Notes under the pieces: generated by a model
Seen by the model: the letters and a program-made list of their open reading frames with translations, nothing else
The model's database searches: none
Told to the model about the DNA's origin: nothing
Translations under genes and position numbers: made by a program
From: Methanohalophilus mahii DSM 5219
Lineage (GTDB): Archaea > Halobacteriota > Methanosarcinia > Methanosarcinales > Methanosarcinaceae
Assembly: GCF_000025865.1 (NCBI RefSeq)
Contig: NC_014002.1
Location: 558,001-622,000, forward strand
Reading direction: 5' to 3'
DNA length: 64,000 bases
Part shown: positions 2,151 through 13,955 of the stretch, piece after piece
Layout of the letters: every line of letters begins with the position of its first letter
How positions within the stretch are numbered: position 1 is the first letter of the stretch

Positions 2151-2351
2151 ATGCCAGAAGAAATAGAGGATGAAACCGAAGGTAAGGTCTATAATGCATT
2201 AAAAGAAAGTGACAAACCGATGCGATCTGGTGAAGTTGCCGAAGCTGCAGATATTGATAAGAAAGTGGTCAGCAAGACAATAACCAAACTTAAGAAAAAA
2301 GGACTTGTATGTTCTCCAAAAAGATGTTATTACGCTGCGTCTGAGGAATGA
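2151..2351 (+). CDS. Small winged-helix DNA-binding protein
   Basis: The 66-residue product has an acidic N-terminus followed by a winged helix-turn-helix: helix, PMRSGEVAEAADIDKKVV (recognition region), then KLKKKGLV leading to the CYY wing. It resembles the small single-domain wHTH proteins of methanogens, and I cannot name a target. An upstream GTG at 2142 would add three residues. I prefer the ATG at 2151 because GGTGAT just before it can act as ribosome binding site. It lies alone between the S10 terminator and the rRNA leader; whether it regulates either is unknown. Confidence 0.75.
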   Translation: MPEEIEDETEGKVYNALKESDKPMRSGEVAEAADIDKKVVSKTITKLKKKGLVCSPKRCYYAASEE

Positions 2352-3037
2352 TTAACTTTCCCGTAGCATTTCTTTTCTCGGAATTCTTGACGTAAAAGTG
2401 CTAACTTTTTTTGTACATTTTCGTATTGTGTTTTGAAATATGCCAGCTTGATAGGTTCTTCATTCTATTTATGCGTTCCATTTATGAATGATTTGTTTTT
2501 TTGCCGTTCTCCACAATTCATTTCAATATTTGTTTGTACGATACCTATTAATACGAGTGAACATATGTAGGAGTCTCGCTCAATGAATGGGTGCAGATGT
2601 AGCATTCACTGTTTGCATCTGCTTGATACCTGTTTGTTCGGTAGAAATTGATAATGCAAATGCTTATATGCGTTCAGTGCGTATATATGTGTCCTGTGAA
2701 TGGCACAGGATTGGTGACCTGTTTCATGCATAAACCCATGCTGGTTTATCGTGTGAGTTGTTCCGGCTCTGTCGGATAACAAGGTTTATATATCAAAAGC
2801 AATATCCATGAGTTCCCGCGCATAACGCGCGTGGAAACATAATCACCTTCACATTAATCAAATGGAGACAGGAGATAACAATTCTGTCTGACACACGCAA
2901 TGGCAGTTCGGTGAATTCTGATCGTTAGTTATTAAGAATTCACTGTGCAGGGCCTTTAATCAGCATCCATGTTGTTTAACAGGTACCCTGCCAACAATTT
3001 CCTTTAACCTTCAAAGGTGTGCTAGAAATTTAACATA
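2352..3037 (+). promoter_or_regulatory. rRNA operon leader with several promoter candidates
   Basis: No credible gene lies in this 686-base stretch. TATA-like elements are TTATATG (2664-2670), GTATATATG (2681-2689) and the best one, TTTATATAT (2785-2793), which would start transcription near 2812. Several tandem promoters are common upstream of archaeal rRNA operons. The distal part holds the 5' strand of the 16S processing stem (2897-2924) and a local 9-bp hairpin, GTGAATTCT (2911-2919) with AGAATTCAC (2935-2943). Confidence 0.7.
2897..2924 (+). other. 16S precursor processing stem, 5' strand
   Basis: This segment pairs with 4528-4555 behind the 16S gene. TTCTGATCG (2916-2924) pairs with CGATCAGAA (4528-4536), TTCGGT (2907-2912) with ACCGAA (4537-4542), and GCAATGGCAG (2897-2906) with CTGTCATTGC (4546-4555), including one G-U pair. 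Three-base bulges GAA (2913-2915) and AAA (4543-4545) flank the central helix, which resembles the bulge-helix-bulge cut by the archaeal splicing endonuclease. The central helix here is 6 bp rather than the canonical 4. Confidence 0.8.
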
Positions 3038-4512
<1,475 letters not shown>

Positions 4513-4527
4513 AAGCAAAAAAACTTT

Positions 4528-4555
4528 CGATCAGAAACCGAAAAACTGTCATTGC
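4528..4555 (+). other. 16S precursor processing stem, 3' strand
   Basis: Complement of 2897-2924, with the AAA bulge at 4543-4545. Together the two strands enclose the 16S gene in the primary transcript. Confidence 0.8.
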
Positions 4556-4597
4556 AATTATATTATATCATATAATCCAACAACGTTGGGAAACCAA

Positions 4598-4670
4598 GGG
4601 CTTGTAGATCAGTTGGAAGATCGCTGCCTTTGCAAGGCAGAGGCCCTGGGTTCGAATCCCAGCAAGTCCA
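4598..4670 (+). tRNA. tRNA-Ala (TGC anticodon)
   Basis: A 73-base cloverleaf in the 16S-23S spacer. The acceptor arms GGGCTTG and CAAGTCC form seven pairs including G3:U70, the alanine identity pair. The anticodon loop TTTGCAA sits in the 5-bp stem CTGCC/GGCAG, and the T arm is CTGGG TTCGAAT CCCAG. The discriminator is A and CCA is not encoded. Spacer tRNA-Ala is the rule in euryarchaeal rRNA operons. Confidence 0.97.
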
Positions 4671-4761
4671 TATTTAATGCACCAGGCAAGTAATTTTGCC
4701 CGGGAAGGATGGATGTGCTCTTTCTGACCAAGGAGAGCACGATGAGATCGTGTATAAGTTG

Positions 4762-4788
4762 CATACCTGACGCTTACTGGAGTAAGCA
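4762..4788 (+). other. 23S precursor processing stem, 5' strand
   Basis: CATACCTGA (4762-4770) pairs with TCAGGTATG (7735-7743). CTGGAGTAAGCA (4777-4788) pairs with TGCTTATTCCAG (7717-7728) with one G-U. Unequal bulges between the helices (CGCTTA and GCGAAA, with a possible CG/CG pairing) resemble a bulge-helix-bulge cleavage site. Confidence 0.8.
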
Positions 4789-4789
4789 A

Positions 4790-7704
<2,915 letters not shown>

Positions 7705-7716
7705 GCCGCTTCCAAT

Positions 7717-7743
7717 TGCTTATTCCAGGCGAAATCAGGTATG
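7717..7743 (+). other. 23S precursor processing stem, 3' strand
   Basis: Complement of 4762-4788. Downstream, ATGACG and CGTCAT near 7784-7799 form a small hairpin before tRNA-Cys. Confidence 0.8.
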
Positions 7744-7828
7744 TAATCATAACAAAATACACGGTCCGATGAAACGCAAAGTTTATGACGGTTGCGTCAT
7801 AGAATCACGCTTCGCACATGACCCATGT

Positions 7829-7900
7829 GCCAAGGTGGCGGAGCGGCTACGCAATCGCCTGCAGAGCGATTCCATCCCGGTTCGAATCCGGGCCTTGGCT
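7829..7900 (+). tRNA. tRNA-Cys (GCA anticodon)
   Basis: A 72-base cloverleaf between 23S and 5S. The acceptor GCCAAGG/CCTTGGC has seven pairs, and the discriminator T (U73) is the cysteine identity base. The anticodon loop CTGCAGA is in the stem ATCGC/GCGAT, and the T arm is CCCGG TTCGAAT CCGGG. No CCA is encoded. Its position before the 5S gene is worth noting, because haloarchaeal operons carry tRNA-Cys after 5S. Confidence 0.95.
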
Positions 7901-7921
7901 TTCATCAATTCCATCTCATAT

Positions 7922-8057
7922 AAGTTGAGTACAGCGGCCATAGCGGCAGGGTAACTCCTGTACCCATCCCGAACACAGAAGATAAGCCTGCCAGCGTTGT
8001 ATACGGTACTAAAGTGCGAGAGCCTTTGGGAACTATACATCGCTGCTGACTCAACTT
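7922..8057 (+). rRNA. rrf: 5S ribosomal RNA
   Basis: The closing helix AAGTTGA (7922-7928) with TCAACTT (8051-8057) encloses a typical 5S body. It contains the loop with CCCATCCCGAACAC and a GCGAGAG segment in the expected place. The true ends may lie a few bases inside the drawn helix. It terminates the rRNA operon, and T-rich stretches follow at about 8070-8095. Confidence 0.93.
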
Positions 8058-8287
8058 ATTGATACTTACCTTTTCTCAATACACACTTTTTTAATATCTG
8101 TCCTGCAATTATTAATCTGTTAGAGAAATCGATATTATGTCTCAAATTTTATAATTATATTTATGTTGGAGTATCGAAAATTTGTACTTTTCCATTTAGA
8201 TCTTTGTCCTGAAAAACAATTTCCTTTGTTCATCCTAAGGATTATTAGTCGGAGATTATCTATATTCATCTATTTATCAGGATAAAC

Positions 8288-8294
8288 TTTATAT
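8288..8294 (+). promoter_or_regulatory. TATA box of tRNA-Arg
   Basis: TTTATAT lies 31 bases before the first tRNA base, a normal spacing for an archaeal tRNA promoter. The 8058-8287 stretch is AT-rich and holds no gene that I can see. Confidence 0.6.
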
Positions 8295-8324
8295 CCATCG
8301 TTATTCAATAAAAGCAATTCTGGT

Positions 8325-8396
8325 GGACCTGTGGTGTAGAGGATATCACTTTAGCCTCCGGAGCTTAGAACCCGGGTTCGATTCCCGGCAGGTCCT
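8325..8396 (+). tRNA. tRNA-Arg (CCG anticodon)
   Basis: A 72-base cloverleaf with acceptor GGACCTG/CAGGTCC and T arm CCGGG TTCGATT CCCGG. The anticodon loop CTCCGGA gives CCG, which reads CGG arginine codons. The anticodon stem TTAGC/GCTTA contains a T-T mismatch at the second pair (28-42), and the discriminator base is T. Both are unusual for arginine. The rest of the fold is sound and a promoter is present, so I take it as a functional gene. Confidence 0.88.
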
Positions 8397-8400
8397 TAAA

Positions 8401-11067: not shown

Positions 11068-11922
11068 ATGGTAACAATTGAAGACTATAAAAATGGTGAA
11101 ACGGAATGGTGTCCCGGGTGTGGCAATTTCAACATACTTGAGGCTGTGAAACGTTCTCTTGTGGACCTTGGTAAAAAACCCCATGAAGTTTTGATGGTAT
11201 CAGGCATTGGCCAGTCCGGTAAATTACCACATTATCTGAAATGCAATACTTTCAACAGTCTTCATGGCAGGACCCTGCCTCCGGCTACGGGAGCAAAGGT
11301 TGCCAATCCTGAACTCACCGTAATTGCAGTGGGTGGTGACGGGGATTCCTATGGTGAGGGAGGAAACCATTTTATACATGCCATACGCCGCAATCCCGAT
11401 ATTACCTTGATAGCACATGACAACCAGATATACGGTTTGACCAAGGGCCAGGCCTCCCCTACAAGTGAAATAGGTATGAAAACCAAGGTGCAGACACATG
11501 GTGTTCTCCATACTCCTTTCAATCCCCTGGCAGTTGCCATATCCCTGGATTGTCCTTTTGTAGCAAGAGGTTTTGCCGGGGATGTCGAGCACCTTTCATC
11601 ACTGATATCGCAGGCGATTTCCCATAAGGGATTTTCCCTTGTGGACATTCTCCAGCCTTGTGTTACCTTCAATAAACTCAATACATACAAATGGTATCAT
11701 GACAGGGTCTATAAAATGGACGACGATGGGCATGATCCTGCAAACAGGATGGCAGCCTTTGAGAAAGCTCTTGAATGGGGTGACCGGATTCCCACGGGTG
11801 TGTTCTATAAGAGAGATTCAGAGCCATTCGAGTCCAAACTTGATGTACTGAAAAGCGGGCCACTTACAGCAAAACAATACGATTCCGCAAAGCTGGACAG
11901 TGTGTTTGAGAATTTTTCCTGA
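11068..11922 (+). CDS. korB: 2-oxoacid:ferredoxin oxidoreductase, beta subunit (KorB-like)
   Basis: The thiamine-diphosphate-binding partner of the preceding subunit, 284 residues as usual for the family. The WCPGCGNF motif (about residues 14-21) carries cluster or metal cysteines. [13 protein letters not shown] (about 89-101) and the downstream [10 protein letters not shown] segment form the ThDP-Mg site. The [10 protein letters not shown] and [10 protein letters not shown] blocks are typical of KorB. It starts one base after the korA stop, with GGAGGTG as ribosome binding site inside the korA end. Substrate specificity cannot be read from sequence alone. Confidence 0.92.
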
Positions 11923-11930
11923 GGTTAATC

Positions 11931-13955
11931 ATGAATTCCAAAACCAACAGGCTTGCACGGGAAAACAGTCCCTACCTGAGACAGCATTCCACAAATCCTG
12001 TTGACTGGTATCCATGGTCAGAAGAAGCTTTTGAACAGGCAAGAAGGAAAAACATTCCGGTCTTCCTTTCCATTGGGTATTCAACATGTCACTGGTGTCA
12101 TGTAATGGCAGAGGAATCCTTTGAAGATGTGCATATTGCCAATCTTTTGAATTCCAATTTCATACCTGTAAAAGTAGACAGGGAAGAGAGGCCTGATGTA
12201 GATGAGTTCTACATGGAAGTCTGCCAGGCAATGAATGGTAGTGGTGGCTGGCCGCTGACTATAATAATGACACCTGAAAAAAAGCCTTTTTTTGCAGCCA
12301 CCTATATACCAAAAGAAGCAGCAATGGGGCATATGGGCTTATCCGACCTGCTGATGCAGGTTACAAATATATGGGACAATAAAAGGGATGAGATAAGGCA
12401 GCAGGCGTCGTAGCTGGTTTCAGAAATCAATAATATTCCCGCCGGAAAGGAGCCGGTAACGCTGTCCATTCTGGAGGATGCGTTTTCCGCACTTTTCGGT
12501 ATGTTTGACTGGAGGTATGGAGGATTTGGCCCGGCTCCCAAATTTCCTTCTCCTTCCATACTTATCTTCTTGCTCAACCGATGGAAAATGGATAAGCGAC
12601 CGCAGACCCTCACGATGATAGAAAATACCCTGTCTTCAATGGCAAATGGGGGAATTTTTGATCATCTGGGTGGAGGTTTCCATCGCTATTCTACAGATGC
12701 CAGCTGGAATATTCCGCATTTCGAGAAAATGCTCTACGACCAGGCAATGCTTGCGATTGTTTATCTCATGGCTTATCAGGCAACAGGGAATGTGCATTAC
12801 AGGGCCGTGGTTGATTCAACAATTTCCTATATGGGAACAGTACTTCGCCATCCAGAAGGTGCCTTCTATTGTGGGGAAGATGCTGACAGTGAGGGTCAGG
12901 AAGGCTTATTCTATCTGTGGTCCAGAGGGCAAATCGAAGACTCTGTTGGGAAAGAAGATAGTGATTTTTTCCTGCAGTTCTATGACCTAATTCCTATTGA
13001 TGTTGAAGGGTCTGAATATGGAGGAGTATTGCGCCGGAATGAATATGCTATAAGTGACACTTCAGATGCGAAATTAAAAGAAATAAGAGCACGCCTGTTA
13101 TCCCTTCGCAGTGAAAGGGTCAGGCCATCTCTTGATAACAAGATTCTCACAGACTGGAACGGACTTGCAATAGCTGCCCTTTCAACGGCTTCCAGGATTT
13201 GCGGGGATGTTTCCAGCCTTGAAAAGGCCAAAGAAACTGCTTCTTTTATTCTTTCCTATATGCGCAGGGATGATGGAAGGCTGTATCACCGTTTCCATGA
13301 AGGCAATTCTGGCATTGATGGTTTTCTGGATGACTATGCTTTTCTGGCATGGGGCTTGATAGAACTTTATGAAGCTACATTTGAGACAAAATATCTGGAA
13401 ACAGCAATTGAACTTGTGGATGTAATGGTTGATGTGTTCTATGATGCAGAGCAGGGTGGTTTTTTCTTCTCTGCGTCAGATGTATCTGACATCCCTCACA
13501 GGACAAAAAAAGTCTTTGATGGCCCCTATCCAAGCGGGAATTCAGTGGCTGTATACAATCTTTTCTGGCTATTCCATATTACCGGTAATGTAGGCTACCG
13601 TGAGTTAGCCCTTACAACCCTATCGGGCTTTGGTGGAATGCTGAAGCGTTCTCCACCGGCCTATAGTTATATGTTAACCGGTCTGATGCTTGGGGAGGCG
13701 ACCCTTGTGGTAATGGTTACAGATTCTGAAAAAATTGGGCTTAAGGAAATGATGGATGTTGTAAGGAAAAATTACCTTCCCAAAACAATATTGTTATTGA
13801 AAAATACCGGGTCTGGCAGTGACCTGTCCCGGATTGCCCCTTATACGCTTGATATGGATATAAAAGAAGGGAGAACTACAGCTTATGTCTGCAAAGGACA
13901 AAGCTGCACTCCTCCGGTCAACGACCCCCTGGAATTGAAAAGCCTGTTGTTTTGA
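11931..13955 (+). CDS. DUF255/thioredoxin-fold protein (YyaL/SSP411 family) with internal in-frame UAG
   Basis: The 674-codon frame is interrupted by one TAG at 12411-12413 (codon 161) and otherwise matches the usual full length of the family. Residues 1-150 are the DUF255 thioredoxin-like domain with STCHWCHVM (Cys53, Cys56), DREERPDVD and GGWPLTI. After the TAG come [36 protein letters not shown] and the alpha/alpha-barrel half with NGLAIAALS. Both halves are conserved and in the same frame, so readthrough gives one intact protein. In a pyrrolysine-decoding methanogen UAG can be read as Pyl. Otherwise this is a nonsense mutation or a sequencing error. The biochemical role of the family is not established. 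It sits 8 bases after korB, probably in the same transcript. Confidence 0.88.

Follow-up and report, generated by a model that had tools for sequence, protein, structure and literature searches.

An in-frame UAG codon in a DUF255 gene of Methanohalophilus mahii, probably a recent, near-neutral gain of pyrrolysine

Does a TAG triplet inside an otherwise intact gene end its protein, betray a gene in decay or specify an amino acid? The question is raised by a DUF255 gene of Methanohalophilus mahii SLP, found in a stretch of 64,000 nucleotides (positions 558,001 to 622,000 of contig NC_014002.1; hereafter the window), for which an initial annotation had proposed pyrrolysine at codon 161. Our analysis leads us, with considerable confidence, to regard this codon as a recent Gln-to-TAG change that is probably read mostly as pyrrolysine, with full-length DUF255 protein still made and the change close to neutral. 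The features concerned are the following.

11068..11922, + strand: upstream gene, 2-oxoacid:ferredoxin oxidoreductase beta subunit (Pfam TPP_enzyme_C and PFO_beta_C)
11931..13955, + strand: DUF255/Thioredox_DsbH gene of the YyaL/SSP411 type, 674 codons with one in-frame TAG (PF03190, E=2e-76; PDB 7tkv, E=3e-118)
11931..12431, + strand: thioredoxin-like domain, residues 1-167, to the end of its last helix (Pfam, 3ira, predicted structure)
12411..12413, + strand: the in-frame TAG, codon 161; Gln (CAG/CAA) in the three closest relatives
12465..13952, + strand: second domain, mostly helical, residues 179-674, which needs UAG read-through (alignment, model, omega 0.27)
12501..12503, + strand: codon 191, the first in-frame start codon past the TAG

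With the TAG taken as a residue, the gene forms a single open frame that begins 8 bases after the end of the oxidoreductase gene, and homologues span the codon, in agreement with the intact gene described initially. The Thioredox_DsbH match in Pfam (residues 5-166) crosses the TAG, as does the match to the full-length homologue in PDB 7tkv (residues 5-673), and the domain structure PDB 3ira was matched over residues 4-168. Both the TCHWCHVM motif and the full-length architecture of the family, PF03190 followed by a C-terminal helical domain, are present. In an AlphaFold model based on 33 sequences (mean pLDDT 90.8), residue 161 lies within the final helix of the thioredoxin domain (residues 152-167), from which a short linker leads to the second, helical domain. 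The sequence pattern of this helix places hydrophobic residues at positions 155, 159, 162 and 166; residue 161 faces away from them, on the polar face, where long polar side chains are tolerated. A separate downstream gene was considered and rejected, the first in-frame start being 30 codons past the TAG and having no SD-like sequence at the usual spacing before it, so that re-initiation on its own is not evident. A PYLIS-like structure 3' of the TAG was likewise dismissed, as the RNA folding there (z -1.8) was not clearly beyond that of shuffled sequences.

The initial annotation had named pylT, pylS and pylBCD as the genes to look for, and all of them were found. ARAGORN placed a tRNA-Pyl (cta) at 304754-304825 on the minus strand, and PylS, PylB, PylC and PylD, each scoring far above its NCBIfam cut-off, are encoded in one cluster adjoining it. 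The genome thus combines the two marks of pyrrolysine-decoding archaea, the pyl genes and rare TAG stops. In M. portucalensis, a member of the same genus, mass spectrometry has established pyrrolysine in MttB (PMC4928046). The pylB gene (G000:C1:302385-303446, minus strand) has a TAG at its own end with the start of pylC right behind, and a pylB ending in TAG is known from other species, as mentioned in PMC2933860.

The genome is a single contig of 2,012,424 bp with 42.6% G+C. When genes were called genome-wide on 101 joined stretches with a home-made procedure based on codon usage, TAG stood at the end of 31 out of 1945 (1.6%), and many of these ends are internal to longer genes; counted in all frames, TAG makes up 17.8% of stop triplets. 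The only TAG end among the 57 genes called in the window was that of the DUF255 gene itself, and at the all-frame share the probability of no TAG in 57 ends is 1.4e-5, which supports the earlier observation that genes of the window, and with them the genome, avoid UAG as a stop. Five of the 31 TAG-ended calls are methylamine methyltransferases (mtmB twice, mtbB twice and mttB), about 17 are other genes whose coding sequence continues past the TAG, and at most nine, pylB included, look like true TAG stops or are ambiguous. A complementary count of frames that continue past a stop gave nine for TAG (three of them methyltransferases), three for TAA and one for TGA when frames with a nearby start were removed, a filter added because the coding score alone mixed true read-through with operon neighbours. 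In 400 kb of the sister genome G034, TAG ended four of 378 genes, two being mtbB and mttB; coding scores were used for this comparison, ORF length alone being polluted by antisense ORFs. These counts suggest that UAG in M. mahii is mainly a sense codon, read more often as sense than as stop, and with the pyl genes present this makes pyrrolysine the best reading of residue 161, as first proposed from the intact frame and the lack of TAG stops in the window.

The genes interrupted by TAG encode CoaD, citrate synthase (amber codon near codon 60), KsgA, a TtuA-like protein, an acyl-CoA synthetase, an MFS transporter, a glutaredoxin-like protein, a GNAT acetyltransferase, a URO-D type methyltransferase, a TPR protein with two TAGs, four PAS histidine kinases (counted solely from domain hits that cover or flank the TAG), an ABC ATPase, a hypothetical protein and the DUF255 protein. 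The genome yielded no further copy of CoaD, KsgA or citrate synthase. The idea that a thioredoxin-fold protein would be a special new context for pyrrolysine is therefore not supported, the DUF255 gene being one of some 17 of its kind outside the methyltransferases. The same set of genes bears on whether the triplet at 12411-12413 could be a sequencing error. Codon 161 of M. mahii is known from one strain and is one base away from CAG, yet an error is hardly credible, because the genome is finished with a stated error rate of less than 1 in 100,000 (PMC3017947) and many other genes carry an in-frame TAG; random error would not produce in-frame stops so strongly biased toward TAG over TAA and TGA.

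Comparison with relatives points to a young codon. The DUF255 protein is present in 91 of the 112 genomes of the family, and besides M. mahii only G022 (two adjacent stops, one TGA and one TAG, at residues 558-559) and G075 (one TAA) have matches with internal stops. Codon 161 is CAG in G034 and G036 and CAA in G032, the closest relatives, the residue in members further away is Q, E, M, A, S, G or D, and 32 other homologues mostly have K, Q or R at this variable position; in none of 29 other aligned family members does TAG occur at this codon, which makes it private to M. mahii. This is the pattern of neutral drift, a TAG in one lineage with the sisters' sense codon one step away, rather than that of a functional pyrrolysine, for which a conserved TAG in an active site would be expected: the position is variable, polar and outside the conserved motifs. 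The comparison of close relatives proposed initially thus leaves pyrrolysine standing as the reading, with no sign of selection for it, and a special, functional or regulatory pyrrolysine in DUF255 is not supported by these alignments. Similar histories can be traced in the other genes, where the codons aligned to TAG in relatives are CAG for the acyl-CoA synthetase, the TtuA-like protein and KsgA (in most sisters), GAG or GGG/GGT for CoaD, GAA for citrate synthase and TGG for the MFS transporter. Since these are sense codons, M. mahii has gained TAG in many genes, mostly one base from a sister's codon. The TAGs of the GNAT and TPR genes are retained across sister species with both flanks intact, which would make UAG read-through old in the genus.

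We therefore favor the following sequence of events. On the line leading to M. mahii, a single C-to-T change would have turned CAG (Gln) into TAG at codon 161. As tRNA-Pyl presumably holds its own against termination wherever UAG occurs in M. mahii, the mutated codon would still be translated, in most cases as pyrrolysine, and DUF255 would continue to be made at full length; it is this translation of UAG that would have allowed the change without loss of function. The swap itself would be close to neutral because the site is on a polar face and holds K, Q, R, E and others in relatives. The efficiency of insertion may nevertheless be modest. In M. acetivorans, a reporter with an introduced amber codon gave read-through of only 20-30%, as reported in PMC2933860, so a truncated DUF255 product may be common, although M. 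mahii may differ from M. acetivorans in this respect.

Such partial termination could conceivably be put to use, with termination yielding a lone thioredoxin-like protein, read-through yielding the two-domain enzyme and pyrrolysine supply setting the ratio. In the model the TAG is close to the border between the two domains, the thioredoxin-like domain alone is a solved unit (3ira), and the documented termination at UAG in M. acetivorans would provide the means. Against this programmed use, TAG is absent from codon 161 in every other species compared, termination would leave the last helix without its residues 161-167, and the RNA folding past the TAG is unremarkable, TAG-free relatives giving z -1.4 and 0.0 at the same place. 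We consider it a very slim prospect, and a conserved product of the partial termination that the initial annotation thought tolerable is not supported, the TAG being unconserved and splitting a helix.

The pattern of constraint is relevant to the other obvious explanation, that of an ordinary nonsense mutation in a young pseudogene whose sole product is a 160-residue thioredoxin fragment. DUF255 is dispensable in the genus. In G031 (L133, G031:C12, ~5491-6027) an in-frame 1.48-kb deletion at the same locus has removed approximately residues 59-552, joining residue 58 to ~553 in a 186-residue fusion; G035 has only a fragment and G037 no match. Given the deletion and the fragment, a young nonsense mutation could persist as well, and the privacy of the TAG to M. 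mahii and the G022 copy broken by two adjacent stops also agree with decay. The gene itself argues otherwise, as it has no second lesion over 674 codons and retains every invariant residue of the family, second domain included. On the M. mahii branch, omega was 0.08 before the TAG and 0.27 past it (31.5 nonsynonymous and 36.5 synonymous changes), the latter inside the range of 0.18-0.38 found past the codon in sisters, although the branch value may say little if the TAG arose very recently. A pseudogene would, in addition, have to exist in a genome that must read TAG through in its methylamine methyltransferases and that carries in-frame TAGs in some 17 further conserved genes, including several single-copy housekeeping ones. 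Decay is accordingly improbable, if less so than a programmed use of termination, and pyrrolysine at residue 161 remains the preferred reading.

Seen in this light, DUF255 is a further example of a known phenomenon, as gain of pyrrolysine by drift has already been described. The initial statement that known pyrrolysine proteins are mainly methyltransferases is fair for the classical cases and omits Thg1 of Methanosarcina acetivorans, the predictions for 'Ca. Methanomethylophilus alvus' and the citrate synthase of M. mahii itself. MtmB, MtbB and MttB of M. mahii depend on the tRNA-Pyl that would also serve DUF255, and their UAG is conserved with pyrrolysine in the active site, unlike the private UAG of DUF255 at a variable polar site. 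Thg1 (tRNA-His guanylyltransferase), in which pyrrolysine arose by neutral evolution (Heinemann et al. 2009, as cited in PMC2933860), resembles DUF255 in its single-species in-frame amber codon, the sense codon in homologues and the presence of pyl genes. It is a different protein, and according to the same account its pyrrolysine was physically detected and is not needed for activity, whereas for DUF255 we infer both the residue and its near-neutrality. The M. mahii citrate synthase (Mmah_0479) is the same situation in the same genome, and its UAG was already proposed to encode pyrrolysine by the genome authors (PMC3017947); the enzyme was judged indispensable, in contrast to DUF255. 'Ca. M. 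alvus', which belongs to another order of archaea, has the same 1.6% of TAG stops, and the sections of PMC4153887 concerned describe 16 predicted Pyl proteins besides the methyltransferases, half with amber-free homologues in two related genomes, attribute them to neutral drift and give no DUF255 example.

DUF255 would then show clearly how a natural expansion of the genetic code can render a nonsense mutation almost silent, and several apparent pseudogenes and split genes in Methanohalophilus are probably intact. A bolder proposal, which we put forward tentatively and rate as possible but doubtful, is that UAG is effectively reassigned proteome-wide in M. mahii, with pyrrolysine in DUF255 and some 16 ordinary proteins, single-copy housekeeping enzymes among them, and fixed and perhaps used in a few such as the TPR and GNAT proteins. 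Should CoaD, KsgA and citrate synthase require pyrrolysine to be made at full length, the pyl genes would be essential on any growth substrate. Proteome-wide pyrrolysine decoding in other methanogens has reportedly been described by Kivenson et al. in about 2025.

Several of the other TAG genes have distributions of their own. In the TPR-repeat protein (G000:C1:1347600-1348226, minus strand; loci L218-L224, L211 and L234), TAGs at codons 91 and 94 are identical in six Methanohalophilus genomes; as about 59% of its codons are identical in all six, this conservation alone is not proof of function. The gene carries other in-frame TAGs in G037 and G033, of which one is common to both at a position that is usually Lys, and different ones again in G022. 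Directly adjoining it, a CDP-alcohol phosphatidyltransferase-like gene (G000:C1:1346873-1347520, minus strand) ends in TAG in six species, and this looks like a conserved true stop because the downstream sequence varies in length and frame. The GNAT acetyltransferase (G000:C1:935174-935722, minus strand; loci L170, L175-L177, L179 and L182) has its TAG at codon 101, just ahead of a YW motif, in six Methanohalophilus genomes, and the 41%-identical homologue in G033 lacks it. The TAG at codon 290 of the URO-D type (MtbA-like) methyltransferase (G000:C1:1474253-1475296, minus strand; L205) is common to G034. Elsewhere in the window, the region ~2300-8400 is probably one of three rRNA operons, because tRNA-Ala/tRNA-Cys pairs recur with equal spacing at three places in the genome, and the ORFs listed there would be spurious.
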